From positions 62,001-126,000 of the forward strand of contig JAUXRX010000041.1 in NCBI GenBank assembly GCA_030681645.1: 64,000 nucleotides of DNA. Direction: 5' to 3'. This document shows, in pieces, positions 7,346-32,979 of the stretch; the first letter of the stretch is position 1, and the number at the start of each line of letters is the position of its first letter. The position numbers and the translations under genes were made by a program. This DNA comes from Archangium sp. GTDB lineage: Bacteria > Myxococcota > Myxococcia > Myxococcales > Myxococcaceae. Below the pieces are notes generated by a model. The model ran no database searches. It saw nothing but the letters and a program-made list of their open reading frames with translations, and was not told the DNA's origin.

Positions 7346-8521
7346 ATGAGCGAGAACCCGGGCGAGGGCGTGAGCGAGGTGGTTCCCCCGGTTCCCGAGG
7401 CGCCCGCTCCGCCGGAGCCGCCCGCGCCGCCCCCACCACCGCCGCCGCCCGTCGACAGCCGCGTGCACCCGATCGCCGTCGCGATCATCGCCCTGACCGT
7501 GTCGCTGGGGACGTACCTGGCGCTCTCTCTGGTGGGCAGCTTCATCAACCTCGCCTTCTCGCTGGTGTTGTCCCAGTTGGCATTGCTCGGCGTCGCGGTC
7601 GTGGTGCTGCGGCTCTCGCGGCGCGACATCGCGCGCTTCACCGGGCTGGTGGGCAGCCGCCCGCGCGCGTACCTCGTGGGCGCCGCGATCGGGCTCGGCA
7701 ACGCCCTGCTCTTCAGCGCCCCGCTGCAGGTGTTCTCGCGCAAGCTCTTCCCCGAGTGGTTGGTGAAGCTCTTCGACATGACCGAGCTCCTCTCGCGGAT
7801 GAACTTTCTGCCGCTGGAGAAGTGGGCCTTCTTCCTGGCGGCGGTGTGCATGGCGCCGATCGTCGAGGAACTGCTCTTCCGCGGGGTGTTCTTTCGAGCG
7901 CTCTCGCCGTGGAACGTGCGCTGGGCGGCCTTCCTCAGCGCGGGCGTCTTCAGCGCGTACCACCTCGACCCCGTGGGCTTCCTCGCGCGCTTCGAGATTG
8001 GCCTGCTGCTCGCGTGGCTGTTCTGGCGCACGCGCTCGCTGGGCGCCTGCATCGGGGCGCACGCCGCGAACAACCTGCTCGCCATGAGCGGTGCCCTCAT
8101 CGCCCAGCAGGGCCCGAGCGACCCCACCGAGCCGACTACCCTGCTGGGCTGGCTGCCGGTGCTCGCGGTGGGCGCGATGTTCTTCATTCCCGCGGCGCGG
8201 GCGCTGTGGCGCAGCGAGCCCGCCGACTGGGCCACGCCGGCCGACGACCCCGAGGCGCCGCGCCGCTCGTTCTTCGCCGAGGTGCTGCCCTGGGCCACCG
8301 GGCTGGTCCTGAGCATCGCCCTGATGCTGCGCGTCGATGCCGCGGGCGCGCAGCTCACCATCATCGACCTCACCACGCCGCTGCGCAGCGCGAAGACGCC
8401 CCTCGAACATCACGAACGTGACGTGCTGCAGCGCCTGCGGAGAGGCGCTCGCGACGGCACCGGCTCGGTGCGGGCCTACACCCAGCTGAGGCGCGAGCTG
8501 CAGCAGCGGGAGGGGCGATGA
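7346..8521 (+). CDS. CPBP (Abi) family intramembrane metalloprotease
   Basis: A 391-residue membrane protein of the CPBP/CAAX protease (Abi) family, intramembrane glutamate proteases related to Rce1. After a Pro-rich cytosolic start (residues ~13-36) there are about eight transmembrane segments. Catalytic motifs are complete: EELLFRG at 174-180, FSAYH with H206, and HAANN with H239 and N243. The long hydrophilic C-terminal tail is unusual for the family. The stop overlaps the next start by 4 nt (ATGA), so the downstream protein is a likely partner or regulator. No clear ribosome-binding site precedes the ATG. Confidence 0.87.
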   Translation: MSENPGEGVSEVVPPVPEAPAPPEPPAPPPPPPPPVDSRVHPIAVAIIALTVSLGTYLALSLVGSFINLAFSLVLSQLALLGVAVVVLRLSRRDIARFTGLVGSRPRAYLVGAAIGLGNALLFSAPLQVFSRKLFPEWLVKLFDMTELLSRMNFLPLEKWAFFLAAVCMAPIVEELLFRGVFFRALSPWNVRWAAFLSAGVFSAYHLDPVGFLARFEIGLLLAWLFWRTRSLGACIGAHAANNLLAMSGALIAQQGPSDPTEPTTLLGWLPVLAVGAMFFIPAARALWRSEPADWATPADDPEAPRRSFFAEVLPWATGLVLSIALMLRVDAAGAQLTIIDLTTPLRSAKTPLEHHERDVLQRLRRGARDGTGSVRAYTQLRRELQQREGR

Positions 8522-9954
8522 AGCCGCAGTACGTCTTCTCGTTCTTCGCGGCAGCCGCCACCGCCGCGGTGTTCTGGCACCCGAAGCCGCCCGAGCCCGT
8601 CGTCAGCACGCGGGTCGAAGATGGGTTCGAGGTGCGCATCACGCGCCACGCCGAACCCCATCGCTTCGAGGAGCTGCCGGTGCCGGCGCTCGAGCGCCCG
8701 GACCGCACCGCCTTCCAGCTGCCGCAGAGCTACCTCCGAAACAGGCTGTGTGCGGGAGATGACGTGATGCTGGCGGGGGTGCAGGCGCGCCTGCTGCTCA
8801 CGCCGGGCGAAGGGGAAGCGTTCGGCGCGCTGGCGGCGGACTGCGCGGGCGAATCCCCGTTCTGTGCGCGCGCCGCGGCCGCGTTGGCGGAAGACGCCGG
8901 GCTGAGCGGCGACGAGCTCTGGTTCTTCGCCCAGGCGCTCGCGGGCTGCGCGCCGGAACGCCTCGCCCCGTACCGCGCGGACTCGCGCCTGCCGCTCGAG
9001 GTGCGCGTGCGCGCCTGGATCGCGCTGGCGGACGCCGGCTCGTGGTCGCCCGAGCTCGGCGCGCTGATCGACGAGGACTTCGCCACCAATGATGGGGGCG
9101 GTGTCCAGTCCTGGCGGCTGGCGACCGCGGTGCTCGCCGTTCGCGAGGACAGCCCCGAGCTCCTCGACGCCTCGAAGCGCTTGATGGACCGCTACCCGTT
9201 GTTCGAGCGCGTGCTCAGGCGCTCACCTGTTCCCGCAGTGCGCGCGGCGGCCTGCGCCCGGATCGGCTGCGACGCAGGCGTCGAGGAACCAGTCGACGGT
9301 GGCATCGAACCACGAGAGGCGCTGGCGGCCTGCGCCCTGCGGGGCGAGAAGCGCGGCTCGTGCCTGGAGGCGCTCTCGATGCTGGATTGGCCGATGGCGC
9401 ACCTCGTCGCGAAGCGGGTGGACAACGAAGGAACCCTGGCCGCAGCGCTGCGGGCGTTCGAGACCCGGGAGGCCTTCGTCGAGTTCGCCCGCTCGGTCTC
9501 GGTCTCGCCCCGCGCCGACGGCGGCCTCACCCCGTGGGACCTGCTCGGCCTGCCGGACCGGAAGAGCATGGTGCGCCTCTTCACCGCCGACGGCCTGGGC
9601 CACGACGAGCTCGCCGCGCGGTGGGCTGAGCAGGCCCCCGAGCTGAAGGGCGCGTTCTTCATCGAGTCGGGTGACGGCGACGCGGGCGATGACCTGCGCC
9701 TCTCCGTCCGGCATGGCGACGACCACTTCTCCGTCCTCGTCCGGCGCGAGCGCGAAAGCCTCGACGCGCGCGCGGTCCTCGCGTTGCTCAACGCGACGGT
9801 CTCGGACCTCGGCGGCAGCAAGAGGTTCTTCCTGGTCCGCTCGGACTGGATGCCGCTGGTCCAGTTCTCCGACCCCGCGCACGTCGCGAAGCTCGTCGAG
9901 CATGGCCTGGTCGAGCTCGAAGACCCCGACCTGCTGCGCCAGGCCGAAGAGTAA
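8518..9954 (+). CDS. Membrane-anchored helical protein coupled to CPBP protease
   Basis: Not recognised. A 478-residue protein with a short N-terminal hydrophobic segment (residues ~5-20, an uncleaved anchor or signal) and a mostly alpha-helical body rich in Ala and Leu, with paired cysteines and HEAT-like helical hairpins from ~95 to ~330. The last ~110 residues look like a separate alpha/beta domain. Translation is coupled to the CPBP protease by a 4-nt overlap, so the two probably act together at the inner membrane. The stop is immediately followed by that of the convergent cyclase gene. Confidence 0.6.
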   Translation: MKPQYVFSFFAAAATAAVFWHPKPPEPVVSTRVEDGFEVRITRHAEPHRFEELPVPALERPDRTAFQLPQSYLRNRLCAGDDVMLAGVQARLLLTPGEGEAFGALAADCAGESPFCARAAAALAEDAGLSGDELWFFAQALAGCAPERLAPYRADSRLPLEVRVRAWIALADAGSWSPELGALIDEDFATNDGGGVQSWRLATAVLAVREDSPELLDASKRLMDRYPLFERVLRRSPVPAVRAAACARIGCDAGVEEPVDGGIEPREALAACALRGEKRGSCLEALSMLDWPMAHLVAKRVDNEGTLAAALRAFETREAFVEFARSVSVSPRADGGLTPWDLLGLPDRKSMVRLFTADGLGHDELAARWAEQAPELKGAFFIESGDGDAGDDLRLSVRHGDDHFSVLVRRERESLDARAVLALLNATVSDLGGSKRFFLVRSDWMPLVQFSDPAHVAKLVEHGLVELEDPDLLRQAEE

Positions 9955-12900
9955 TCAGAACTTCGGGTCGACCGTGTCCTTGAGCGACTTCGGAATGCGG
10001 AAGCGGGCGTTCTTTCCCTCGCGCTCGGCGAGCACCACGCCTTCCATGAACAGGTGGGTCGCCCACGCGAACAAGCGCGCGCTCGGCGAGCGGGGGTCTC
10101 CACGTGGAATCCACTCGTCCACGACCGTGGCCGCGTCGAGCAGCTGCCGCGTCCAGTCGGCCGGGGGCAACCCGAGGAGATCGGCGCAGTGGTCTCCCGA
10201 CAGCGCGCGAATGAGCGCGATGGGAAACCCATCGAGCACCTCGCCCGGGAAGTACGACTGCATCAGCTCCACCAGCGGCCGCATCAGCTCGACGCCGTCG
10301 ACCGAGGGGCGCCACTGGCGATCGCGGATCGCTTCCATCAGCTCTTCCGCGTCGATCAGATCGACCGGGAGCAGCTCGTCGCGCAGCCCCAGCAGGTGCC
10401 CGACCACCTTCCAGGCGTGCAGCCAGGCGTCGGCCTCTTCCGCGGCGAAGGGGATCTCGAGCAGCCGCAGCCCGTCGAGCGTCACCACCGAGAAGGTCAT
10501 CAGGGTGCCGGCGAGATCTTCCTGGTTGATGGGCAGGCCCAGCTTCGCCGCGTCCCACTTCGGCGACTCGCGCCTCGAGATGAGGTGCCGAATGGCCGCG
10601 TGCATGAGCCGCACCTTCTTCGCGGTCAGCACGCCCCGGCCACCCGGCGCGAGCGCACCTTCGTCCATCACGTCGAACAGGAACTGCGCCGTCTCGAAGA
10701 TGCGCTGCTTCGTGTGCTTCGTCATGCCCTGGGTCTGGGTGATGACGTGCGCGCCGTTCGCCGCGGCGTAGGCCTGGGGCAGCGAGCTGCAGAACAACCC
10801 CATCGCGATCTGCCAGCCGGTGCGCGTGAACAACTGCTGCGCGATCGCGAGCTGCTTTGGATCGGCCCACGAAGGCAGCGCGGTGTCAGCGAAGTACGCG
10901 GCCGCTTCCGGCGGCAGGCCGGGCGGCAGCGGCTCGGTGGTGCGGAAGATGCTGTTCATCAGCCCGTTCACCGCGTCGACCTGCCCGCGCGCGAAGATGG
11001 CGGCGATCACGTCGTCGGCGGCCGGGTCGGTCACCTGCCGCATCGGGTCGAGCTTCGCGTTGCTCCAGCGGAGGCGATCGTCGCCGGCGGTCGACGGGTG
11101 CTGGCGGTGCGCGAGGTACCTGCCCAGCGCCTCGGTCGGGTAGAAGCGCGCCGCTTCGGGGTACACGTAGAAGGTGTCGGGCGGAATGTTGACGTGCAGG
11201 TACTCGCCGTTGCCCCACGTCCCGTCAGCGCGCTGCGTGTCGAGCAGCAGCTTCACCGCCCTCTTCACCGCGAACGAGTCACCCTCGCCTGCGTCGATCA
11301 ACGCCTGCACCACCAGGCCGGTGAGCGGCAGCATGGTGGGCCCGACGCCCGCGGCCGAGTCGGTGCGGTACGACTCGGGACCCTCGCCCCAGCCGCCGTC
11401 GGCGTTCTGCTTCGAGAGCATCCACTTCACCGCGCGCTGCACCCACGGTTCCTGCAGGTTCACGCCCACGGCCTTGAGGCCGAGCACCACGAAGGCGGTC
11501 GCCGAGAGGTAGTTGACCACCCAGCGCCCCCACCACGCCCCGTTCACCCACTGCTGCTTCTTGAGGAAGTCGACCGCGCGCACCACCGCGGGCGAAGAGA
11601 CGATGGTCTCGCCGAGGTGACCCATCGCGTGCAGCACGCGCGCGGTCACGTCTTCGGTCGAGGGGTCCTGCGTCACCGGGGGCGGCACCAGGAACGCTCC
11701 GGCCATCGACCACAGGCTCGAGAGATCGATGTGCGGCGCTTCCTTCATGATCGGCCCGGGCGGCTTCTGGCCCAGGTTCCACACGAAGGCCGACCAGCCG
11801 CCGTCGGGGTTCTGCATGTCGAAGAGCCAGCGCTTGCCCAGCTCGGCCGCCTTCGCGAGCGGAGGGCGCAGGTCCGCGGGAAGCCGGGGATCTTCCAGCG
11901 CCAGGCCGATGGGAGACAGCGCCACCCCCGCGTCGTCGCTGTCGGGCATGGTGACGTTGCTGCGCTGAAAGCCCCAGCCGCCGGTGAGCACCGCGTTGGG
12001 CTTGCGGTTGTCCATGTGCGGCTGCCGCGTGTCGTTGAGCTGCGCGTCAGCCAGCCACTCGAGGCCCCGCGCGACGTCGGGATCGGCGGGGGAGATGCCG
12101 CCGGCGAGCAGCGCCCTCACGTCGAACGCGGTGGACCACACGTTGGTGCCGTAGCCGGTGAAGTACGTGCCGTTCGGGTCGCGCAGCTTCTGGCTCTCGA
12201 GCCAGCCCAGCGCGCGGGCCCGCATGCCCCGGCTCTCGCTGGTGTCGATGCTGGTGAGCATGGGCAGCACCAGCGCGGTGATGGCGGTGCCGCCGTTGAA
12301 GCTGCCTTCGGGGTTCTGGAACTGGCGGAAGAGCGCGAGCGCGGCGCGGCCCTTGAGCGTGCCGAGCAGGCCGATGCGCTTGCCGTCGGCGCCGAACTCA
12401 CCGCGCAGGCGGCGCACCAGGAACTCGGTCTGGTACGCGCCCATGAGCACGCCCGCGTGAAAGCGCGTCTCCATCAGCGACATCACCGGCGGCGGCACCA
12501 TCAACGTGGTGCCCGGGCACGGGAGTTCCTTCGCGTCGACCAGCCCCGCCATGCCCAGGAAGAGCGCGGCGAAGTCCTGCTCGGCCATGCGGGCGACGAC
12601 GCCCTTCACCCCACCGTGGGCGTCGACCCACTTCTTCGCCTCGGCGGCGGCCGCCGTCGCGCCGCACAGGTGCAGCGCCGCCCAGCCGCAGGCGGTCGCG
12701 CCGAGATCGCCCTGCTTCGCGTAGCGCTGAATGGTGAACGAACCGTCGGCCTGCTGCTGGCCGGTGAGCCACCTGCCCGCGGCCGTGGTGTCAGCCGGGC
12801 CGAGCTGGTCGAGGTAGCGCAGCACCACCACCACCTGCGCGCTCACCCACGCGCCGATGTCGGCGGCCACGTCCCACGAGCCGTCAGCGCGCTGCGTCTT

Positions 12901-12969
12901 CCACAACACGCGCTGCGCGCGATCGACCGCGAGCTGCACGTCTTCGATCTTCGGCTCCCCGATGCTCAT
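9955..12969 (-). CDS. Class II terpene cyclase-like / MpaB-type oxygenase fusion
   Basis: A 1004-residue two-enzyme fusion. Residues 1-~630 match a complete squalene-hopene-type cyclase: QW-like motifs at 26-32, 72-78, 218-224, 386-392, 521-527 and 579-585, and the protonating-acid motif DSDD at 343-346 inside a GWGFQRSN...PDSDDAG context. Residues ~640-985 resemble the MpaB/DUF2236 oxygenase family (related to Lcp rubber oxygenase): KKVRLMHAAIRH with R787 and H790, then INQEDLAGTL and WKVVGHLLGL. A strong GGGGGAGGG ribosome-binding site precedes the ATG. It lies 27 bp behind a DUF2378 gene, probably one operon. Cyclisation followed by oxidation of a triterpene-like substrate is inferred. Confidence 0.8.
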   Translation of the reverse strand: MSIGEPKIEDVQLAVDRAQRVLWKTQRADGSWDVAADIGAWVSAQVVVVLRYLDQLGPADTTAAGRWLTGQQQADGSFTIQRYAKQGDLGATACGWAALHLCGATAAAAEAKKWVDAHGGVKGVVARMAEQDFAALFLGMAGLVDAKELPCPGTTLMVPPPVMSLMETRFHAGVLMGAYQTEFLVRRLRGEFGADGKRIGLLGTLKGRAALALFRQFQNPEGSFNGGTAITALVLPMLTSIDTSESRGMRARALGWLESQKLRDPNGTYFTGYGTNVWSTAFDVRALLAGGISPADPDVARGLEWLADAQLNDTRQPHMDNRKPNAVLTGGWGFQRSNVTMPDSDDAGVALSPIGLALEDPRLPADLRPPLAKAAELGKRWLFDMQNPDGGWSAFVWNLGQKPPGPIMKEAPHIDLSSLWSMAGAFLVPPPVTQDPSTEDVTARVLHAMGHLGETIVSSPAVVRAVDFLKKQQWVNGAWWGRWVVNYLSATAFVVLGLKAVGVNLQEPWVQRAVKWMLSKQNADGGWGEGPESYRTDSAAGVGPTMLPLTGLVVQALIDAGEGDSFAVKRAVKLLLDTQRADGTWGNGEYLHVNIPPDTFYVYPEAARFYPTEALGRYLAHRQHPSTAGDDRLRWSNAKLDPMRQVTDPAADDVIAAIFARGQVDAVNGLMNSIFRTTEPLPPGLPPEAAAYFADTALPSWADPKQLAIAQQLFTRTGWQIAMGLFCSSLPQAYAAANGAHVITQTQGMTKHTKQRIFETAQFLFDVMDEGALAPGGRGVLTAKKVRLMHAAIRHLISRRESPKWDAAKLGLPINQEDLAGTLMTFSVVTLDGLRLLEIPFAAEEADAWLHAWKVVGHLLGLRDELLPVDLIDAEELMEAIRDRQWRPSVDGVELMRPLVELMQSYFPGEVLDGFPIALIRALSGDHCADLLGLPPADWTRQLLDAATVVDEWIPRGDPRSPSARLFAWATHLFMEGVVLAEREGKNARFRIPKSLKDTVDPKF

Positions 12970-12996: not shown

Positions 12997-13548
12997 TCAG
13001 ATGCTGTTCTTGAGCTCGAGCACGCACGCGTCGCCGTCCTGGCTCTTGACGGTGATGAGATCGGGCCAGCCGGGAATGACCGGGTGTCCGGCGCTGAGCA
13101 GCCCTGCATAGAAGTGAGGGACGCCGCTGGCGTCGTTGAGCCAGAGCTCCATCGTCTTCTCGTCGATGATGGTGAGCTTCGACTGGAGAAAGTTGGCGCC
13201 TCTGCGCAGGCTGTTCGACATGCGCTGCAGCGAGCGCCGCGCCCCGAAGAGCTTGGCCGCCGACAACATCGCCCTGCCCACCAGGCCGTCGGTGAACTGC
13301 ATCACCGTGGCGCGACCCACCTCGAAGTGCTGCTGCGTGGCCTCGACGTTGGGGAAGAGATCGGCGCCGACGAGTTGAACGGCCTTCGCCCAGTCGGCCG
13401 CCGCGTAGGCAGGCTCGAGCTTGTGCGGCGGGCCGATGCGCAGCGCCGCGAGTGCGCGCTCGGTGTGCGGCTTCACGCGCCCCGCTGCGACCTTGAGGAG
13501 TGCTTCGATCGAACTGCTGAAAATCAACTTCGAACCGCCGACGCCCAT
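12997..13548 (-). CDS. DUF2378 family (myxobacterial TIGR02265-type) protein
   Basis: A 183-residue protein resembling the DUF2378/TIGR02265 family, a lineage-specific paralogous family of Myxococcales with no known biochemical function. Typical features are the opening helix (FSSSIEALLKVAAG), a central FPNVEATQQHFEVGRATV segment, the GARRSLQRM helix and a C-terminal beta-rich part ending LPELKNS-like. It is 27 bp upstream of the cyclase-oxygenase gene on the same strand, so co-expression is likely. No membrane segment or signal peptide. Confidence 0.75.
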   Translation of the reverse strand: MGVGGSKLIFSSSIEALLKVAAGRVKPHTERALAALRIGPPHKLEPAYAAADWAKAVQLVGADLFPNVEATQQHFEVGRATVMQFTDGLVGRAMLSAAKLFGARRSLQRMSNSLRRGANFLQSKLTIIDEKTMELWLNDASGVPHFYAGLLSAGHPVIPGWPDLITVKSQDGDACVLELKNSI

Positions 13549-14048: not shown

Positions 14049-14891
14049 TCAGAGACAGCGCCCGGCGGCGCACTGAAAGGAGCAGCACTGCTGGGAATTC
14101 AGGCAGGTCGCGTTGGTCGCCAGGCAGCTCATCGCCCCGCATCGCCCGCCGTTGCATTGGCCCGAGCAGCACTGCCCCTGCTCGGTGCACACCTCGTTGG
14201 TGGGCAGACAGCTGCCGCGGCACTGGCCCAGCTGACAGCTCAGGCCCAGGCAGCAGTCGGCCGGCAGCGTGCACGTCTCATCGAGCTGCCGGCATTGCGA
14301 GCGGCAGGTGAAGGTGGCCGCGCTGCAGAACCCCACGCAACACTCGGCGTCCTGCTGGCACATGGCGCCCGCCGGGGTGCAGGCGACGGCGCGGCACAGG
14401 CCGGCGCTGCACGAGCCTTCGCAGCAGTCCTTCGCTTCGGCGCAGGTGGCCCCCGTCGCGCCGCACGCCGCCGCGCGGCACAACGAGCCGGCGCAGGTCG
14501 AGCCGCTGCAGCAGTCCGGCGTCTGGGTGCACCCCTGACCCGGGCTCGCGCACGTGCCGTCGCCCACGCACCGGTTCGAGAGGCAGCTCTTCGAGCAACA
14601 CACCGACGGGGTCGAGCACCCTTCACCCGCGGCGGAGCAACCACACGTGCCGTCGTTGCGGCATTGCCCGTCGCAGCAGTCGCTGTGGAAGCTGCAGGTC
14701 TCCCCGGCGGCCTTGCAGGGCAGCAGGCACAGGCTGCCCACGCACGAGCCCTGGCAACAGTCTGCGTTCGTGCCGCAGCTCGCGCGCAACTTCACGCAGG
14801 TGGGTGGTGGCGCCTCGACGGTCGGGCCGCAGGCCATCACGAGGAGGCACAGCCACGGGAGCGCTCGCAAGCGCTCATCATACAGGGTCAC
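14049..14891 (-). CDS. Cys-rich lipoprotein with tandem knottin-like repeats
   Basis: A 280-residue lipoprotein: a hydrophobic signal ends in lipobox LVMAC (Cys21). The rest is about nine tandem cysteine modules of 25-32 residues with the pattern C-x5-6-C-x5-CC-x3-4-C-x4-C (for example CGTNADCCQGSC and CTLPADCC), which resembles the inhibitor cystine knot spacing. The protein is probably disulfide-rigid, surface-attached and protease-resistant. GTG at 14891 overlaps the TGA of the upstream 1023-residue gene by 4 nt (GTGA), supporting this start and coupled translation; a longer reading to 14924 is possible. Function unknown; adhesion or inhibitor roles are guesses. Confidence 0.75.
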   Translation of the reverse strand: MTLYDERLRALPWLCLLVMACGPTVEAPPPTCVKLRASCGTNADCCQGSCVGSLCLLPCKAAGETCSFHSDCCDGQCRNDGTCGCSAAGEGCSTPSVCCSKSCLSNRCVGDGTCASPGQGCTQTPDCCSGSTCAGSLCRAAACGATGATCAEAKDCCEGSCSAGLCRAVACTPAGAMCQQDAECCVGFCSAATFTCRSQCRQLDETCTLPADCCLGLSCQLGQCRGSCLPTNEVCTEQGQCCSGQCNGGRCGAMSCLATNATCLNSQQCCSFQCAAGRCL

Positions 14892-17800
14892 TTCCCCCGC
14901 AGCGCCTTGCTCTGGGCGGTGCACTGGGGGATCAGCTCGCCCAGCGTCGTCTCGGCGCCGGCGACCACGAACTTGCGCCCCTTGAGCTCAGGGCTGCGCG
15001 TCTGGAGGATGATCCCCGTCGCGATGCACTCGTCGAACTGGGCGAGGGCCTCGGGCTTCTTGCCCTTGTCGAGCAGGCTCTTCGCCAGCTCGTAGGCGCG
15101 CCGGGGGCCTTCCTCGAAGGCGAGCAACGGCACCACCTGCTTGAGCAGCTGGTCGGTGGCGGTGACCTGCTGAACGCACGAGGCCACCACTTCCTTCGGG
15201 GTGCTGGGCCGGCCGTCGACGACGACCGCGGCGTTCGAGAGCATGGCGTTCTCCCTGAGCATGCTCGCGCCGTCGGTCGAGCACGCCTTGAAGAGGCCCA
15301 TCGCCTTCTCGTACTGCGTCTTCTGCGTGCGCAGATCTGCGCTCGAGGCCTGGTTCACCGCGGCGGTGCCTGCCGAGAAGGCCTCGACGGTGCGCTTGCG
15401 CACCTCGCGCACCTGCCTGGCGATCTCGAGCTTCTCGAAGAGCTTCATCAGCTCGTCGCGCGACTTGTTGGCCTGCGCGTAATAGCCGTAGTCCTGCGTC
15501 TCGAGCCCCACCTGCGCCTCGATCGACTGGTTGAGGCCCTCGACGGCCTGGGTGGCCGCCGTGAGGTCCGCGTCGGTGGACTCGGGCTGGCGGGCTGCGT
15601 CGACCTTCGCCTTCGTGGACGCGACGGCCTCGACCAGGGCCGCGCGCGCGTTGGCCGCGGCCAGCACCACCTTGCGCCCGCCCATCTTCTTGGTGAGCTC
15701 GGCCACGCGCTTGCGCACCTCGCGGTCGTAGGCGCCGTACTGCCGGTCTTTCTTCGTGAGCTCGGCGCTCGCGTCGAGGGTGGCGAGCAGGTCCTTGATG
15801 CCGCCTTCCGCTGCGTCGACCTGGGCCTGGGTGAAGCCGGGCTTCGAGAGCGCGTCGTACAGCGTGGTCAGGGTCTGGCGGCCGGCCTCGACCTTCACGC
15901 GCTGGCGCTCGACGTCGACCTCGATGCGGCGCTTGTTGGTGCTCGCCTTCGCGTCACGCAGGAGCGCCTTCGCGTCGTTGACGTAAGCCGCCAGCAGCGC
16001 GTTCTTCGCGTCCATCGCGGCGATGGTCTTCTCGAGGATGCCGATCGCGCTGTTGGCCTCGGCGAAGGCGTCGTCGGGCGGGTTGTTCTTCGCGATGGAC
16101 TTGAGGCCCTGGTTCACGTCCTTGCTCGCCTCGGCGAGCTGCTTGCGTTGGAGGTCGGCGTCGACCTCGTTGCGACGCTGCTTGGTGCTCGCCTTGCCGT
16201 CACGCAGGAGCGCCTTCGCGTCGAACACGAAGGGGCCCAGCATCGCGTTCTTCGCGTCGGTCGCGGCGATGGTCTTCTCGAGGACGCCCAGCGCGCTGTT
16301 GGCCTCGGCGAAGTTCTCGTCGGTGACGTCCTTCCTGGCGATGGTCTTGAGCGCCTGGTTCACGTCCTTGCTGGCCTGCGCGAGCTTCTTCTTCTGGGCG
16401 TCGGCGTCGACCTCGGTGCGGCGCTGGCCCGCGCTCGCCCTGCCCTCGCGCAGCAGCTTGTTCGCGTCTCCGACGTACGCGGCCAGCAGCGGGTTCTTCG
16501 CGTCCATCGCGGCGATGGTCTTCTCGAGGATGCCGAGCGCGCTGTTGGCCTCGGCGAAGTTCTCGTCGGTCGCGTCCTTCTTCGAGATGGCCTTGAGGGC
16601 CTGGTTCACGTCCTTGCTGGCCTCCGCGAGCTTCTTGCGCTGGCCGTCGGCGTCGACCTCGGTGCGGCGCTGGGCCGTGCTCGCCCTGCCCTCACGCAGG
16701 AGCTTGTTCGCGTCGAAGAGGTACGGGGCGAGCGTGGGGTTCTTCGCGTCCATGGTGGCGATGGTCTTCTCGAGAACGCCCAGGGCGCTGTTGGCCTCGG
16801 CGAAGGCCTCGTCGGGCGCGTCCTTCTTCGCGATGGCCTTGAGGGCCTGGTTCACGTCGTTGCTCACGGCCTCGAGGTTTCGACGGTGGAGCCCGGCCTC
16901 GACCTCGAAGAGCAGGCCCTTCACCTCGATCACGTATTGGGCGAACGCCTGGCTGCGCGCGGCCTCGGGCTCGAACTTCTCGATCAGCTTGCGCACCACG
17001 ATGGCGGCGGTGCGCGCCTCGGCGAGCTGATCGGGGGTGGGCTTCCGGGCGCGCACGCCCCTGGCGGTGGTGGCGAGGTCCTTGCGGGCCGGTTCGATCT
17101 CCGCCTTGAGCCGGGCCAGGCCGGTGGCGCTCCACAGGTCGTCGGCCTTCTTCTTTCCCTGCGTGAGCTCGGCCCTGATCTTCGTGGCGTCGCCGCGGTA
17201 CGCCGCGTCTTTCGCCTCGAGGGCCTTGCCGTCGTCGAGCCTCTTCGCGAGCGCAGACGCGGCCGTGTCGGCGTCCTTGAACTGGGCATCGGTGGCGGCG
17301 GGGCTCAGCGCAGCGAGCGCGGTGGAGAAGGCCTTCCGGGCTTCCTCGAGCAGCGGCCGCTGCCCGGCGACCAGCTGCGCGAGGGTGCGGTCGTCGAGCG
17401 CCTTCTCGCGGCGCGCGAGGGTGGCGGTCAGCTCGGTGAGGTAGGCGGCGAACTTCGGGTCTTCCTTCCCGAGGGGCTTCGCGTCGTCGACGAGCTTGCG
17501 GAGCGCTGCGATGGCGGCGCGATCGTCGTCGAAGTCTTTCGCGGTGGCGTCCTTGCCTTCGGCGCGCGTGGCCTTCTCGGTGAGCGTGGCGAGCGCGGCG
17601 TCGAGCACGCGGCGGCTGTCGAAGACGTGCACCTTCGAGCGGCGCTGCTCGACGTACTCGCGCTGGGTGCGCAGTTCCTTCCGCGCGGCGAGCACGGCCC
17701 TGGCGTAGTCCAGGTCGTTCGCCTCGGCCTCGGCGCCGGCGTCGATCGCGGTCTTGAGCGCCTCGACGGCCGCCAGCGCTGCGTCGAGGTCGGGGTTGCT

Positions 17801-17959
17801 GGGTGGATCCTTCTCGATCCGCTGGACCGCCGCGGTCAGGCTGGACCGAGCCGTGTCGAGCCGCTTCTGCGCGTCCGCGACGCGTGCGTCGGGCGCAGCG
17901 AGGACTTCGAGAGGGAAGAGAAGCAGCGAGAGGGCCACGACCGTGCGTGCGAAGTTCAT
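14888..17959 (-). CDS. Secreted all-helical protein with 82-residue repeats
   Basis: A 1023-residue protein with a cleavable signal peptide (MNFARTVVALSLLLFPLEVLA) and an almost entirely helical, Lys/Ala/Asp-rich body. Four strongly conserved 82-residue repeats run from ~362 to ~690 (DVNQ recurs at 368, 450, 532 and 614). Weaker copies appear before and after, recognisable by an aromatic residue followed by a basic helix (Y85, Y173, Y254, Y342, Y748, Y836), giving roughly ten units. The C-terminus (~870-1023) is different and has three cysteines. It is followed by a coupled Cys-rich lipoprotein. Likely periplasmic or extracellular; not matched to a known family. Confidence 0.7.
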   Translation of the reverse strand: MNFARTVVALSLLLFPLEVLAAPDARVADAQKRLDTARSSLTAAVQRIEKDPPSNPDLDAALAAVEALKTAIDAGAEAEANDLDYARAVLAARKELRTQREYVEQRRSKVHVFDSRRVLDAALATLTEKATRAEGKDATAKDFDDDRAAIAALRKLVDDAKPLGKEDPKFAAYLTELTATLARREKALDDRTLAQLVAGQRPLLEEARKAFSTALAALSPAATDAQFKDADTAASALAKRLDDGKALEAKDAAYRGDATKIRAELTQGKKKADDLWSATGLARLKAEIEPARKDLATTARGVRARKPTPDQLAEARTAAIVVRKLIEKFEPEAARSQAFAQYVIEVKGLLFEVEAGLHRRNLEAVSNDVNQALKAIAKKDAPDEAFAEANSALGVLEKTIATMDAKNPTLAPYLFDANKLLREGRASTAQRRTEVDADGQRKKLAEASKDVNQALKAISKKDATDENFAEANSALGILEKTIAAMDAKNPLLAAYVGDANKLLREGRASAGQRRTEVDADAQKKKLAQASKDVNQALKTIARKDVTDENFAEANSALGVLEKTIAATDAKNAMLGPFVFDAKALLRDGKASTKQRRNEVDADLQRKQLAEASKDVNQGLKSIAKNNPPDDAFAEANSAIGILEKTIAAMDAKNALLAAYVNDAKALLRDAKASTNKRRIEVDVERQRVKVEAGRQTLTTLYDALSKPGFTQAQVDAAEGGIKDLLATLDASAELTKKDRQYGAYDREVRKRVAELTKKMGGRKVVLAAANARAALVEAVASTKAKVDAARQPESTDADLTAATQAVEGLNQSIEAQVGLETQDYGYYAQANKSRDELMKLFEKLEIARQVREVRKRTVEAFSAGTAAVNQASSADLRTQKTQYEKAMGLFKACSTDGASMLRENAMLSNAAVVVDGRPSTPKEVVASCVQQVTATDQLLKQVVPLLAFEEGPRRAYELAKSLLDKGKKPEALAQFDECIATGIILQTRSPELKGRKFVVAGAETTLGELIPQCTAQSKALRGK
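15890..16876 (-). repeat. Four tandem 246-bp coding repeats
   Basis: In-frame tandem repeats inside the 1023-residue secreted protein. Each unit encodes 82 residues including NQALKAIAKKDA-, AEANSALGVLEKTIA- and DAKN-like blocks. The near identity of the four copies against the more divergent outer copies suggests recent internal duplication. Confidence 0.85.
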
Positions 17960-18019
17960 CGGGGGGCCGACCCTACCTCTCCGGGGTCGGTCTCTGTGAT
18001 CTGAAGGTGTGCGGCAAGG

Positions 18020-19669
18020 TCACCCTTTCTGCTCCCGCCGGGGGGCCGGTGAGGCGGGGAACTCCAGCCGCCGACGCTCCGCGGCCTGGGGCTTCTGGCG
18101 GCGCTCGGCCTCGGCCGGATTCGCCTGCTCCTGCTCACGCCGTCGCGCCTCTTCGTTCTGGCGGCGCTCGGTCTCGAGGCGCTGCTCCTGCTCGCCACGC
18201 TGACGATCAGCCTCGGCGCGGCGCCGCGCGTCTTCCTGCTGGCGGCGCGCGGCCTCGATGCGGTTCGCCTGATCCTCCGCCGTCCGACGGCGCTCAGCCT
18301 CGACCCGGAGACGCTCTTCCTGGTTCCGCCGGCGCTCGGCGTCGAGGCGGTTGGCCTGCTCCTCGGCCGCCCGGCGTCGCTCAGCTTCGGCACGCAGGCG
18401 CTCGTCCTCCTTCTGGCGGCGTCCTGCCTCGACGTGACTCGCCTGCTCCTCAGCCGCGCGGCGGCGCTCGGTCTCGACGCGGAGCCGTTCCGCGTCGTCG
18501 CGACGCGCAGGCGAGGCGCGATCGGCCTGCTCTTCCGCCGCCCGGCGACGCTCAGCCTCCTCACGAAGCCGCTGCTCCTGGTTCTGGCGACGCGCGGCCT
18601 CCATGCGATTGGCCAGCTCTTCCGCTTCACGGCGGCGCTCGGCCTCTGCGCGAATCGCCTGCTCCTCAGCGGCACGGCGACGCTCGGCCTCGAGACGATC
18701 GACCTGCTCCCGCTCGCGGCGCTCCGTCTCGAGGCGATGGGCCTCCGCTTCTGCTGCGCGGCGCTCGGCCTCGTGGCGATTGGCCTGCTCCACGCGGCGA
18801 CGCTCCGCCTCGAGGAGATTCTGCTGCTCCACGCGGCGACGCTCCGCCTCGAGGAGGTTCGTCTGCTCCGCGCGGCGGCGCTCCGCCTCGAGGCGATCCG
18901 CCTGCTCCACCCGGCGACGCTCCGCCTCGAGGCGGTTCGCCTGCTCCACCCGGCGGCGCTCCGCCTCGAGGACGTGGGCCTGCTCGACCCGGCGGCGCTC
19001 CGCCTCGAGGACGTGGGCCTGCTCCACCCGGCGACGCTCAGCCTCGAGGACGTTGGCCTGCTCCGCCCGGCGACGCTCCGTCTCGAGGACGTTGGCCTGC
19101 TCCGCCCGGCGACGCTCCGTCTCGAGGACGTTGGCCTGCTCCGCCCGGCGACGCTCCGTCTCGAGCCGACTGGCCTGCGCTTCCGCGCGTCGGCGCTCGC
19201 TCTCGAGACGCTCGGCGCCGCGACGCTCGGCCTCGGCGCGGAGAAGCCGCTCTTCCCTGCGCTCCTGTTCCCGCTGCGCGTCCCGGCGCTGCTCGAACGG
19301 AGACCGCGTGTCGCGCGCCACGTGCATGGGCCGCTCGAGCCGGTGCCTGCGAGCGCCTCCGCCGTGGCCGGGCGACCAGGCCCACGGGGTTCCCCGGTTC
19401 CGCCGGTCATGGGCGTCACGCCGCACGCACCGTTGACCATCGACGAAGACGTACGTGTCGCCCTCGAAGTACTCGGTGGTGGCGTAGAAGTAGACGTCTC
19501 CCTCGTAGAGGTTCTCGTCGGGCTGGTACGCATACGCGGCGACGGGCTCGATCACCCCTCGAGGCGCGAGTTCGCCGCTCACCACGGGCTCGACCTCGAA
19601 GTGGTGCGCGCAGGCCGAAGCCATCAGCAGCGCAACCACGATCACCGCAGCGGAGTTGTTCGTTCTCAC
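18020..19669 (-). CDS. Lipoprotein with long Arg/Glu single-helix domain
   Basis: A 549-residue lipoprotein: the signal ends in lipobox MASAC (Cys20). Residues ~20-125 are a small domain (YEGDVYFYATTEYFEGDTYVF). From ~125 to ~540 the protein is an uninterrupted run of Ala, Glu, Arg and Gln in a 13-residue period (AERRRVEQANRLE), expected to form a stable single alpha helix or extended coiled coil tens of nanometres long. It ends in a basic Pro-rich tail. It starts with GTG and has no clear ribosome-binding site. Such lipoproteins could span the periplasm or act as a spacer; that role is inferred. Confidence 0.7.
   Translation of the reverse strand: MRTNNSAAVIVVALLMASACAHHFEVEPVVSGELAPRGVIEPVAAYAYQPDENLYEGDVYFYATTEYFEGDTYVFVDGQRCVRRDAHDRRNRGTPWAWSPGHGGGARRHRLERPMHVARDTRSPFEQRRDAQREQERREERLLRAEAERRGAERLESERRRAEAQASRLETERRRAEQANVLETERRRAEQANVLETERRRAEQANVLEAERRRVEQAHVLEAERRRVEQAHVLEAERRRVEQANRLEAERRRVEQADRLEAERRRAEQTNLLEAERRRVEQQNLLEAERRRVEQANRHEAERRAAEAEAHRLETERREREQVDRLEAERRRAAEEQAIRAEAERRREAEELANRMEAARRQNQEQRLREEAERRRAAEEQADRASPARRDDAERLRVETERRRAAEEQASHVEAGRRQKEDERLRAEAERRRAAEEQANRLDAERRRNQEERLRVEAERRRTAEDQANRIEAARRQQEDARRRAEADRQRGEQEQRLETERRQNEEARRREQEQANPAEAERRQKPQAAERRRLEFPASPAPRREQKG
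18690..19190 (-). repeat. 39-bp tandem coding repeats (13-residue helical unit)
   Basis: About a dozen consecutive 39-bp units, each encoding a version of AERRRVEQANRLE. Some neighbouring units are identical at nucleotide level. They lie wholly within the lipoprotein gene and keep frame. Confidence 0.85.
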
Positions 19670-29596: not shown

Positions 29597-30907
29597 TCAG
29601 AGCAGGCCGGGCACCGGGCCGCAGGCGCCGTCGTCTCCGAAGCCGTTGACCTGAACGCCCATCAAGCGCGCGACCGAGGTCAACACGGTGTCGTTGAAGA
29701 TGGGCGTGTTGAACTTGAGGTAGCGGTTGGTGCGCAGCCCGCCCTTCGCGGTGCCGAAGAGCACCGCGGGCAGGCGGCGGATGTCGTGGTGCCCACCGAA
29801 GTGCGAGATGCCGAGCACGATGGTGTTGTCGAGCATGTTGCCGTCGCCTTCGGGCGTCTCGCGCAGGCGCCGCACGAACTCGCCCAGCATCTGCCAGTCG
29901 TACTTCGCGCAGCGAATGTAGAGCTCGCGCTGCTGCACCGGCTGGTGGTGCACGTCGTTGTGCAGGTCGGCCACGTTGGTGTTGGGCAACCAGTCGTAGC
30001 GCCAGCCGAAGCCCGACCCACCCCACACCATCGAGCCCACCTGGGCGCGGTTGCAGGCGAAGGCGGCGTGCATCACGTCGAAGTGCGCGCGAATGCGGTG
30101 CGGAATGTTGAAGTCGTTGGTGGGGCGCACCGGCGGCTCGCAGCGCGTGAGCGGGGGCGGCACGTTGCCCAGGTCTCGCAGCACGCTCTGCTCGGCGCTG
30201 CGAATGGAATGCTCGTGCACGTCGAGCTTGAGCTTCTCCACGCCCGAGAGCTCGGCGCGCAGCCTCGAGAGGTCGCGGCCCAGGCCGTCGAGCAGCGAGC
30301 GCCGCGCGGTGAGCCGGCGGATCAAGGTGTCGCGCTGGCCCAGGTCACCCTGGGGAGGGACGAAGCCACCGAACATGCGATCCCACGCGGCCGAGGGCGG
30401 CTTGATCGCCACCTTGAACGCGTTGGCCCCGGTGGCGAACGGCCGCTCGCGGATCGACTCGTCGCTGCGGCCCTCGACGTCGGTGATGTTCACCTCGAGC
30501 GCGGTGAGGCCCCGCTGCTGCGCGACGAATTGATCGATCGACGCGCCGCCCGGCAGCCCCTCGCCGCCGTCGTCGATGACGTCCTTCGCGGTCACCACCT
30601 TGCCCGGCGCGCGCGCGTGGTTCGCGCCGGCGGCGTTGTAGCCGGAGTCGCGGATCTGCACGCCGTCCAGCACCACCATGTTCTCCTTCACCGCGCCGCA
30701 GTTCGCGAGGATCTCACCCAGCTGCCAGTTGTTCTCCTGGCCGTTGCTGAAGAAGGCGTTCTCGTCGGGGTAGCCGGCGGAACACACCCAGACGAAGAGC
30801 CGTTTGGGCGGCGTCGTGGCCTGCGCGTGAGCGCGGCGCGACGAGAGCACCGGGGAGAGGAGCGCGGCGGCGCTCAGAGAGCTGAAGATGAACTCGCGGC
30901 GCTTCAT
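29597..30907 (-). CDS. DUF1552 family secreted protein
   Basis: A 436-residue protein of the DUF1552 family, seen mainly in Planctomycetes and Myxococcota next to DUF1592 proteins. It begins with a twin-arginine-like signal (MKRREF followed by a hydrophobic stretch and AHA), suggesting folded export. Family landmarks include VCSAGYPDE near residue 41 and GISHFGGHHD near residue 387 with clustered histidines. The start overlaps the stop of the DUF1592 gene by 4 nt, so the pair is made together. DUF1552 proteins resemble alkaline-phosphatase-fold DUF1501 proteins; activity unknown. Confidence 0.85.
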   Translation of the reverse strand: MKRREFIFSSLSAAALLSPVLSSRRAHAQATTPPKRLFVWVCSAGYPDENAFFSNGQENNWQLGEILANCGAVKENMVVLDGVQIRDSGYNAAGANHARAPGKVVTAKDVIDDGGEGLPGGASIDQFVAQQRGLTALEVNITDVEGRSDESIRERPFATGANAFKVAIKPPSAAWDRMFGGFVPPQGDLGQRDTLIRRLTARRSLLDGLGRDLSRLRAELSGVEKLKLDVHEHSIRSAEQSVLRDLGNVPPPLTRCEPPVRPTNDFNIPHRIRAHFDVMHAAFACNRAQVGSMVWGGSGFGWRYDWLPNTNVADLHNDVHHQPVQQRELYIRCAKYDWQMLGEFVRRLRETPEGDGNMLDNTIVLGISHFGGHHDIRRLPAVLFGTAKGGLRTNRYLKFNTPIFNDTVLTSVARLMGVQVNGFGDDGACGPVPGLL

Positions 30908-32979
30908 GGAACTCCCGATGACCAGAGCTCGCGGCCATTCGTCGCGAGGATGAGGAGACGTCCGTTGGGGTCGACGTGCAGCACGGCGCCGGGGTTGCCG
31001 TTCGTGCCGGTGTGGAAGCGCGGCTGGCCGTCACGGTCGTAGACCACCAGGTTGCCGTCACCCTGCATCGCGGTGACGCCGGGCGTCCCCTGGGTGTTGG
31101 TGGCCCAGACCGGCACGCCGCCCGTGCGGTAGAGCACGAGGTTTCCGTCGAGCTGGTTGAGGAGGGTGAAGGCACCTCCGAGCGAGGGCTTCGACGCGCC
31201 CGGGGCCAGGCTCTCTCCCGAGGCGAGCAACACCGAGCTTGCGACCGGCACGCCCGCGTCGACGCCGGCGTCGGGCGTGACCCCGGCGTCGGGGGGTCCG
31301 GCATCCGGTGTCGAGGCGACCGGCGCCTCGGGGACTCCGCGCCGCACGTAGAGGTGGGGGCTGGACAGAGTCTCTTCCACCAGGCGCGCCACCTCGAGGG
31401 GCCCGGTGCCGAGCTGCTGCACCAGCGAATCGCCGAGTGTCTCGGTGTGAGGCGCCGCGGGCGAGCCGAGCGCGAACTTCATGAAGTTGCGGCTGAAGCA
31501 GGCGGTGGTGGTGGGGCTCTTCGCGATGGTGTCGACGAGGTCCTGCGCGCCGTCGAACGCCTTCACCTCTCCGCCGAACGGCACGTCGGACACCGCGGGG
31601 TCGATGGCCTTCCCGTGCTGGGTGGTGCGGTAGCGGCCCAGCGCGTCGTAGCGGCCGAAGGCGAAGCCCAGCGGCATGAACTGCCGGTGGCACGCGCGGC
31701 ACTCGGCGCCCTGCTGCATCATCGCCTCGTACTGCTGGCGGGTGGTGAGCTGGTCGAAGCCGGCCACCATCATGGCGGTGTCGCGCGCGACGACGGTGTT
31801 CACGCTGGACGGCGGCCCGACCTCTTCGCAGAGCAGCTGCTTCTTGAGCATCAGCCCGCGCAGCACGGGGCGGTCCCTGCCCGGGTCGGACGCCGAGCCG
31901 ATCGCCGCCAGGGTGCTGGCGAGCGTGAGAATGCCCCTGCGCTGCGTGGGATCGAGCGCGACCCGCTGCGCCACGTCCTGCGTCGAGCTGAGGCCGTACA
32001 GCGGCGCGGTGTGCCGATCGACGAAGGTGAAGCTCTCGGAGAACAGCGCCGGCAGCGTGCCCGCACCATCGAAGATGACCGCGCTCACGAACGCGTCGAA
32101 CTCGGCCTTGAGCGAGCGGCCCTGCTCGGGCGCGGTGAGCTTGGCGAAGTCGCCGGGCTGGCGCGCCATCTGGTCGAGCGTGGTGACCTTGAGCCACTGC
32201 CTGAAGAAGTCGGCCTGGCGCTCGCGGGTGCGCGGCGAAGCCCACAGGCGGCGAATGTGCGCGCGCAGGTGCACGTCGTCGAGCAGCCCCGCCTCGGCGT
32301 CGGCGAGCAGCGCCTCGTCGGGCATGGTGCCGGTGAGCGTGTAGGAGATGAGCGAGGCCTTCTCGAAGTCATCAAGCGCGAATTGATCGCTCCCGGCCTG
32401 CACCCGCTGGCCGACCTCGGTGCGGTAGAGAAGATGGGGCGAGGTGATCAGCCGGGTGATGAGCAGCTCCACGCCCAGCGGCCGGTCGCCCACGCCGCCG
32501 AAGAAGGTGAAGAGCTCCTCGGCCTGGGCGGCGGTGAGCGGGCGGCGATACGCCCGCCGGCCCAGCTGAACGATGACCGTGCGCACGCAGGCGTCGGAGA
32601 GAGCCGCGGGGTCGTAGCAGGGAAAGTCGGCGGCCAGGCGCGTCGCCACGTACTGCTGGGCGAGCGCCTCGCCTTCGGTGAGCAACGCAGAGAAGAGGTT
32701 CTCGTCGACCTGAATCGCCGCGCCGTTGTCGAAGCCGCCCGTCCAATCGGCGTGGGTGAGGGTCGAGGCCACGGTGAGGCCCAGCAGGTCGCGAATGGTG
32801 CTGCGGTACTCGGGCGCGCTCAGCACCCGGGCCTGCGCAGGCGCGATGGCGACCTCGATGGGCGGCTTCACCGGCTCGGCGGGCGCGTGGTCTCCGCCGG
32901 CCGGCGTGGTGCCTGGCATGAGGTCTCCCACGCAGGCGGCGAGGCAGAGGAGACAGAGGGCGAGGAGGCTGCGGAGCAT
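30904..32979 (-). CDS. DUF1592-type lipoprotein with heme motif and bulb-lectin tail
   Basis: A 691-residue lipoprotein: lipobox with Cys16. Residues ~50-545 carry the DUF1587/1592/1588/1585 series found in planctomycete-type cytochrome-like proteins, including a heme-binding CRACH at 427-431. A PDAG-rich linker (~555-580) leads to a C-terminal bulb-type lectin domain (583-691) with the Q-x-D-x-N-x-V-x-Y motif at 609-617 and 639-647; its third copy is degenerate. This lectin fusion is unusual for the family and suggests sugar binding at the surface. Coupled to the DUF1552 gene. Confidence 0.85.
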   Translation of the reverse strand: MLRSLLALCLLCLAACVGDLMPGTTPAGGDHAPAEPVKPPIEVAIAPAQARVLSAPEYRSTIRDLLGLTVASTLTHADWTGGFDNGAAIQVDENLFSALLTEGEALAQQYVATRLAADFPCYDPAALSDACVRTVIVQLGRRAYRRPLTAAQAEELFTFFGGVGDRPLGVELLITRLITSPHLLYRTEVGQRVQAGSDQFALDDFEKASLISYTLTGTMPDEALLADAEAGLLDDVHLRAHIRRLWASPRTRERQADFFRQWLKVTTLDQMARQPGDFAKLTAPEQGRSLKAEFDAFVSAVIFDGAGTLPALFSESFTFVDRHTAPLYGLSSTQDVAQRVALDPTQRRGILTLASTLAAIGSASDPGRDRPVLRGLMLKKQLLCEEVGPPSSVNTVVARDTAMMVAGFDQLTTRQQYEAMMQQGAECRACHRQFMPLGFAFGRYDALGRYRTTQHGKAIDPAVSDVPFGGEVKAFDGAQDLVDTIAKSPTTTACFSRNFMKFALGSPAAPHTETLGDSLVQQLGTGPLEVARLVEETLSSPHLYVRRGVPEAPVASTPDAGPPDAGVTPDAGVDAGVPVASSVLLASGESLAPGASKPSLGGAFTLLNQLDGNLVLYRTGGVPVWATNTQGTPGVTAMQGDGNLVVYDRDGQPRFHTGTNGNPGAVLHVDPNGRLLILATNGRELWSSGVP

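Follow-up and report, generated by a model that had tools for sequence, protein, structure and literature searches.

Terpene cyclases usually pass their product to separate oxygenases. Class II triterpene cyclases, for which we used the squalene-hopene cyclase (SHC) AacSHC (PDB 1gsz) as the reference, consist of N- and C-terminal SHC domains and carry QW motifs, the residues W312, F365 and W489 and the sequence DXDD, the olefin-protonating form of the class II acid motif; we take H451 of AacSHC to be the partner that activates this acid, and F601, F605 and Y612 to be aromatic residues acting late in its cyclisation cascade. On the oxygenase side, the closest described systems are the rubber oxygenase LcpK30 (PDB 5o1l/5o1m), MpaB of mycophenolic acid synthesis and the bacterial MpaB-family oxygenases, of which Nro1 is reportedly one. 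For one MpaB-family enzyme, the accessible part of PMC12724181 describes cleavage of a C=C bond and an absorption suggesting heme b, and that part makes no mention of a fusion to a cyclase (the “MpaB” of PMC10036551 is, by its accessible text, an unrelated protein). Here we describe a gene of Archangium sp. (Myxococcota; contig JAUXRX010000041.1, positions 62,001 to 126,000 of the forward strand, the whole 64,000-nucleotide stretch being called the window below) in which a class II terpene cyclase and an MpaB/Lcp-type oxygenase form one polypeptide. Each half is of a known kind and the combination is the new part. An earlier reading of the window from its letters alone (the sequence-only reading) knew of no described example, and none was found in the open-access literature, subscription papers lying mostly outside that search.

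A single reading frame joins a cyclase and an oxygenase

The fusion gene occupies 9955..12969 of the minus strand (stop codon included) as one intact open reading frame (ORF) of 1004 codons, running from ATG to stop with no internal stop codon. This bears out the single 1004-residue protein of the sequence-only reading, which had not named the strand. Both of the domain types proposed there were recovered by Pfam above the cut-offs, namely SQHop_cyclase_N (E 4.5e-24, 85.6 bits against a cut-off of 26.2) and SQHop_cyclase_C (E 1.8e-71, 241.2 bits against 26.1) in the cyclase half (residues 15-619, 11113..12927), and MPAB_Lcp_cat (PF09995, the MpaB/DUF2236 domain; E 6e-23, 82.5 bits against 23), which the fusion shares with MpaB and the bacterial MpaB-family oxygenases, in the oxygenase half (residues ~646-992, 9994..11034). 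In a comparison by sequence with PDB, the closest entries were an SHC, which we take to be the A. acidocaldarius enzyme, for the cyclase half (E 2.3e-53) and the Lcp rubber oxygenase for the oxygenase half (E 4.9e-29). The acid motif D343-S344-D345-D346 (11932..11943) as well as R787 and H790 stand exactly where they had been placed. The presence of QW-type motifs was likewise confirmed, the proposed count of six was not: the relaxed pattern Q-x2-5-G-x-[W/F] gave seven motifs when overlaps were counted once, five of them ending in W. In 2000 shuffles of the cyclase half, raw matches to this pattern averaged 0.78 with a maximum of 5, against 11 observed, and DXDD averaged 0.15, against one observed. 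A frame break between residues 620 and 650 was looked for in the 11 aligned fusions described below, and the frame was continuous in 11 of 11.

The cyclase half departs from squalene-hopene cyclases

The cyclase half was compared with AacSHC and with 22 standalone cyclases of the phylum, a fetched subset of those found, 12 of them SHC-type and 10 of the oxidosqualene cyclase (OSC) type. The DXDD aspartates (D343, D345 and D346 in the window's protein) and the equivalents of W312, F365 and W489 are kept in all 12 fusions identified, and the ten OSC-type sequences have DC in place of the fusion's full DXDD. Unlike AacSHC, the fusion has an additional oxygenase domain and a remodelled late-cascade pocket at residues 594-606 (11152..11190), with I595, T599 and A606 in place of F601, F605 and Y612. 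Across the 12 fusions the F601 place is V, I or L, the F605 place T or A and the Y612 place A, whereas the SHC-type standalones keep F601 and F605 in 10 of 12 sequences each and Y612 in 12 of 12; Y495 is replaced by S, T or A in the 12 fusions and kept in 10 of the 12 SHC-type standalones. The loop at residues 398-436 (11662..11778) is lengthened, comprising 39-40 residues in the 12 fusions and in the cyclase of genome G017 (see below) against 21-24 in the 22 standalones, and the stretch 121-201 is shortened, with 74-81 residues in the fusions against 94-132.

The best NCBIfam model for the window's protein was hopene_cyclase (TIGR01507), with 261.4 bits against a cut-off of 431.1; the fusion of genome G138 reached 273.1 bits and thus also stayed under it. 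AacSHC has been engineered at F601 and F605, whereby the cyclisation of shorter chains was altered (PMC11165016, accessible part). The natural changes at F601, F605 and Y612 suggest a shorter cyclisation cascade, and, judged by its residues, the fusion cyclase is not an ordinary SHC. The label “squalene-hopene-type” given by the earlier reading thus stands at the level of the superfamily and does not extend to true SHC, in view of the score below the cut-off and the several late-cascade residues that differ.

The oxygenase half keeps heme-site residues of Lcp

The oxygenase half aligns along its length, over ~347 residues, with LcpK30, and the equivalents of Lcp R164, T168, R195, H198 and R202 are kept as R756, T760, R787, H790 and R794. 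An R-x3-T pattern (R756 and T760, in the segment R756...E759-T760 at 10690..10704, where R and T are kept and K is E) and a proximal His (H790, in R787-L-M-H790 at 10600..10611, equivalent to the proximal heme ligand H198) are therefore both present near the heme site. The same five residues were found by eye in 54 MpaB-type domains. The roles of the Lcp residues were taken from the accessible part of PMC5522427. By analogy with MpaB and Lcp, the C-terminal domain probably carries heme b. Unlike LcpK30, this half is joined to a cyclase and is without K167 and E148.

Distribution and evolution of the fusion

At least 12 fusion genes were found in at least 11 of the 195 Myxococcota genomes searched (G000, G069, G068, G151, G154, G150, G153, G146, G103, G110 and G138), which belong to a single family and to six genera; two copies are present in G146, and the copy of G110 is split over two contigs. 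These counts, and those of MpaB genes beside Pyr4-like genes given below, are lower bounds drawn from the best four candidates per genome, and many of the searched genomes are incomplete, so that absences are weak. The alignment comprised 11 of the 12 proteins, the ten others showing 45-69% identity to the window's protein; the twelfth (the second copy of G146, L051) stands outside this alignment and inside the trees and residue counts. D343, D345, D346, R756, T760, R787, H790 and R794 are invariant in the 11 aligned fusions. Over six pairs, the ratio of nonsynonymous to synonymous substitution (dN/dS) ranged between 0.26 and 0.49 for the cyclase half and between 0.22 and 0.29 for the MpaB half. 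The fusion is real and conserved and not an assembly accident, because it recurs in 11 of 195 genomes, all of a single family, and dN stays below dS in each half. Compared with the two closest relatives, only the cyclase half is sped up in the window's lineage, and the oxygenase half is not.

The MpaB tree unites the 12 fusions in a single clade (support 100/100). The cyclase tree does likewise but adds the G017 cyclase to the clade (100/100), with G138 and G017 unresolved at its base; long branches, that of G017 included, drew a warning from the tree program. A single fusion event would fit these trees. G017, which belongs to another family, has cyclase and MpaB as adjacent genes whose stop and start codons overlap in ATGA. 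Its cyclase shares the long loop with the fusions and carries V and T where AacSHC has F601 and F605; close to a contig end, the match starts at query residue 188, with the N-terminal part outside view.

An apparent second fusion in G127 (L095) was discarded, its N-terminal extension looking by eye like read-through of an upstream frame. Viral and plasmid carriers were rejected as well: no relative was present among 49 viral stretches, and of the 80 plasmid records that matched, none covered 80% of the fusion at any one place.

MpaB-type genes beside other isoprenoid genes

Genes for Pyr4-like transmembrane terpene cyclases (PF25129) numbered 13 in 10 of the 195 genomes, none of which is among the 11 fusion genomes. 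In at least 8 of the 13 cases the Pyr4-like gene immediately follows an MpaB-type match on the same strand, in G066 (12.81 Mb), G063, G126, G093 (two places), G122 (0.9 Mb), G065 and G100 (loci L152 6830-8853, L153 7434-9502, L154 6839-8830, L155 6942-8841, L156 7231-9280, L157 7281-9284, L061 8853-10864 and L063 8968-10960). The called genes are at most 7 bases apart or overlap by a few in six of these eight pairs; in the other two, the cyclase start as called falls within the MpaB gene and is uncertain. In G079, the Pyr4-like gene is 4 kb from an MpaB match and on the opposite strand. The pairs, which come from further genomes of the family that holds the fusions, resemble the fusion in that a terpene cyclase gene is directly beside an MpaB-type gene, and differ from it in that the cyclase belongs to a different Pfam family and that there are two genes instead of one. 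Gene neighbourhoods were read with a crude caller based on third-position GC, which missed one DUF2378 gene that was recovered by tblastn. Upstream of some pairs, genes for a P450, a TetR regulator and a 1385-aa adenylate-cyclase/AAA protein were seen.

On Streptomyces plasmids, the MpaB gene comes directly after a polyprenyl synthetase gene in all five of the best 5 of 32 records with MpaB relatives, in a unit with the order small unknown gene, polyprenyl synthetase, MpaB-family oxygenase (L135 4532-7158; also L134, L136, L137 and L138). The other four MpaB relatives are 77-83% identical to the first, and the five units, being from related strains, amount to about one independent case. The unit was not seen for three weaker relatives, one of which has a 32%-identical polyprenyl synthetase ~3.4 kb away. 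No relative of the fusion's cyclase was found beside the Streptomyces plasmid unit.

Substrate supply in the fusion genomes

The sequence-only reading had noticed no other terpenoid gene nearby, and indeed no terpenoid family was found in the 14 different neighbouring ORFs, all within the first 33 kb, the part of the window scanned for families. Elsewhere in the window's genome, contig C47 holds squalene synthase (SQS)-type, squalene epoxidase (SE)-family and OSC-type genes within ~10 kb, probably a sterol pathway, and such a pathway is known in myxobacteria (PMC4919349, accessible part). The C47 cyclase is of the same superfamily as the fusion cyclase but has the motif DCTAE and falls into a separate clade; a role of the fusion as the sterol-pathway enzyme was rejected, since it is this separate cyclase that sits with the SQS-type and SE-family genes. 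A tetraprenyl-beta-curcumene route was also rejected: PF10776, presumably the partner synthase family of tetraprenyl-beta-curcumene cyclase, had no match in the one genome searched, the window's own, with B. subtilis as the positive control.

Seven of the 11 fusion genomes have an SQS-type gene, which scores best on TIGR01559 in 7 of 7 and in all under its cut-off; G150, G138, G151 and G103 are without one. G150 has two other SQS_PSY genes that score best on HpnD, under the cut-off, so that squalene may be made there; G138 and G151 have one phytoene-synthase-like gene each, and G103 gave no SQS_PSY match in the search of the fusion genomes, in which 5 of the 20 SQS_PSY loci are untyped. Oxidosqualene cyclase and SE-family genes occur together in the same 5 of the 11 genomes; PF08491 also gives matches in both controls, E. 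coli and Caulobacter, and is thus not specific for squalene epoxidase. The suggestion that the enzyme draws on an existing pool such as squalene is consequently possible in the window's genome, with its C47 genes, and is unlikely as a general rule. Because 4 of the 11 fusion genomes are without an SQS-type gene, a fixed link of the fusion to squalene is unlikely, although incomplete assemblies weaken these absences.

Proposed function and alternatives

Our preferred reading, held with moderate confidence, is that the fusion is a bifunctional cyclase-oxygenase of a polyprenyl substrate in which the cyclase acts first. The protein is probably active on one isoprenoid substrate, and its relatives suggest that the two halves work together to make a lipid-like compound. 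Directly observed are the unbroken fused frame, the homology of each half, the kept catalytic residues, the occurrence in 11 genomes, the overlapping gene pair of G017 and the recurrent pairing of MpaB-type genes with other isoprenoid genes. The following mechanism is our inference throughout, from the presence of heme and the two activities to the substrate, the shortened cascade, the sequence of steps and the product: the N-terminal DXDD cyclase would protonate one olefin in a long polyprenyl chain, closing fewer rings than SHC does, so that an unsaturated tail would remain; the C-terminal domain would then oxidise or cleave one of the C=C bonds in that molecule, and the end product would be a cyclic terpenoid aldehyde, ketone or acid. 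More tentatively, and as a possibility rather than an expectation, MpaB-type heme oxygenases may be recurring partners of bacterial terpene cyclases in the place usually taken by a P450 or a flavin monooxygenase, serving two cyclase families within one Myxococcota family (class II cyclases by fusion, Pyr4-like cyclases by pairing), in which case the fusion would yield a partly cyclised, oxidatively cleaved terpenoid from a non-squalene polyprenyl.

Several observations weigh against the preferred reading. Two SHC-type standalones (L072 and L081) are also without F601, F605 and Y495, in the absence of any fusion. The H451 place is R444 in 12 of 12 fusions; R is found in 6 of the 12 SHC-type standalones as well, and the Y420 place carries F throughout, in the fusions as in the 12 SHC-type standalones; changes at these two places therefore say little. 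In the oxygenase half, Lcp K167 corresponds to E759 and E148 aligns with G739 (an alignment that is moderately sure), and a distal site unlike that of Lcp is therefore to be expected; by these residues, Lcp's own chemistry need not hold for the fusion. The placing of tail oxidation after cyclisation is read from residue changes only, and a structure prediction of the full fusion from a 3-row alignment had a mean predicted local distance difference test score (pLDDT) of 35. The cyclase-half branch of the window's lineage measures 0.46 against 0.15 and 0.18 in the two closest relatives, with dN of 0.27-0.28 against 0.20, and this faster evolution could be relaxed constraint. Furthermore, the MpaB half of G017 is apart from those of the fusions, unresolved in a wider clade, and 4 of the 13 Pyr4-like genes have no nearby MpaB gene among the matches listed, as judged from the surroundings for three of them and from the match list only for the fourth.

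An opposite order of steps, in which the MpaB half would epoxidise or trim the terminal olefin and the cyclase would then protonate the epoxide or the shortened chain, has precedents in squalene epoxidase with oxidosqualene cyclase and in fungal monooxygenase-Pyr4 pairs. Standalone MpaB-type genes stand directly before Pyr4-like cyclases, and characterised fungal Pyr4 members open epoxides; in Streptomyces, MpaB follows a polyprenyl synthetase, with no relative of the fusion's cyclase found beside it, and may act on an uncyclised chain. We nevertheless consider this order unlikely, as the fusion cyclase has a complete DXDD where the 10 OSC-type sequences have DC, and as the MpaB/Lcp relatives of known chemistry, in the accessible parts of their descriptions, cleave C=C bonds. 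It is less probable still that one half is inactive, or that the two halves work on molecules unrelated to each other, their fusion serving co-expression only. The changed equivalents of H451, K167 and E148 and the faster cyclase evolution in the window's lineage would suit such a state, but the main catalytic residues are kept in the compared fusions, dN is lower than dS in each half, and both the gene overlap in G017 and the repeated MpaB-isoprenoid pairings speak for a joint role.

An ordinary hopanoid enzyme, forming a hopene-type triterpene from squalene that the MpaB half would decorate, would agree with SHC as the nearest solved structure by sequence, with hopene_cyclase as the best NCBIfam model and with the SQS-type gene in 7 of 11 genomes. 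We regard it as very improbable on account of the 261.4 bits against a cut-off of 431.1, the late-ring pocket residues altered in 12 of 12 fusions and the lack of an SQS-type gene in 4 of 11 genomes, of which one has no SQS_PSY match at all. Finally, the idea of a sequencing or assembly error joining two adjacent genes can point only to G017, where the halves truly are two genes; with the same fused frame in 11 genomes, the ten others aligned at 45-69% identity, such an artefact has a negligible probability, and it was rejected on the continuous frame of the aligned fusions.

Neighbouring genes

A DUF2378/TIGR02265 gene (12997..13548, minus strand) precedes the fusion on the same strand at a distance of 27 bases and is probably in the same operon; its family occurs only in myxobacteria and has no known function, according to the accessible part of PMC9257966. 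DUF2378 genes of one subfamily flank 8 of the 12 fusions, seven upstream on the same strand and one divergent, with 46-58% identity to that of the window by alignment and 56% in G154 by tblastn, and in G103 a distant DUF2378 gene (28% identity) is found downstream of the fusion. Because the window's genome has 26 DUF2378 genes, a chance neighbourhood is improbable. A structure model of the DUF2378 protein (mean pLDDT 59.8, predicted template modelling score 0.53, 3-row alignment) was searched with Foldseek, and 22 of the first 24 matches were titled H-NOX or soluble guanylate cyclase, at E-values of 3.3e-3 to 0.45 with none at or below 0.001; the other two, the porphyrin/heme entries 3m0b and 3nvr, are presumably H-NOX. 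The model thus weakly resembles H-NOX, at low confidence, and membership is not claimed because no histidine is invariant among seven DUF2378 neighbours and the one PDB match by sequence is at chance level (E 0.9). A link to anti-phage defence was rejected, with no matches for the two proteins searched.

On the plus strand at 7346-9951, two genes convergent with the fusion encode a CPBP-protease-like protein, whose NCBIfam matches are all under the cut-off, and a 478-aa protein without a family match; by neighbour clustering, the two are not common to other fusion loci. The minus strand at 14891-19533 holds a 1023-aa ORF with a sub-threshold M16_C match only and an overlapping upstream 525-aa ORF without a match, for which the GC caller favours another frame. 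At 29600-32979, also on the minus strand, a DUF1552 gene adjoins a DUF1592/1588/1595/1587/1585 (PSD/PSCyt) gene.

Implications

The union of a class II cyclase with an MpaB/Lcp-type oxygenase in one polypeptide would be a new enzyme architecture, and the fusion would be a natural one-pot catalyst yielding cyclic terpenoids in oxidised form. A second, independent test of the idea of an MpaB-cyclase partnership would come from the neighbouring MpaB-Pyr4 genes, and the fusion itself would be a marker for mining unknown myxobacterial terpenoids.

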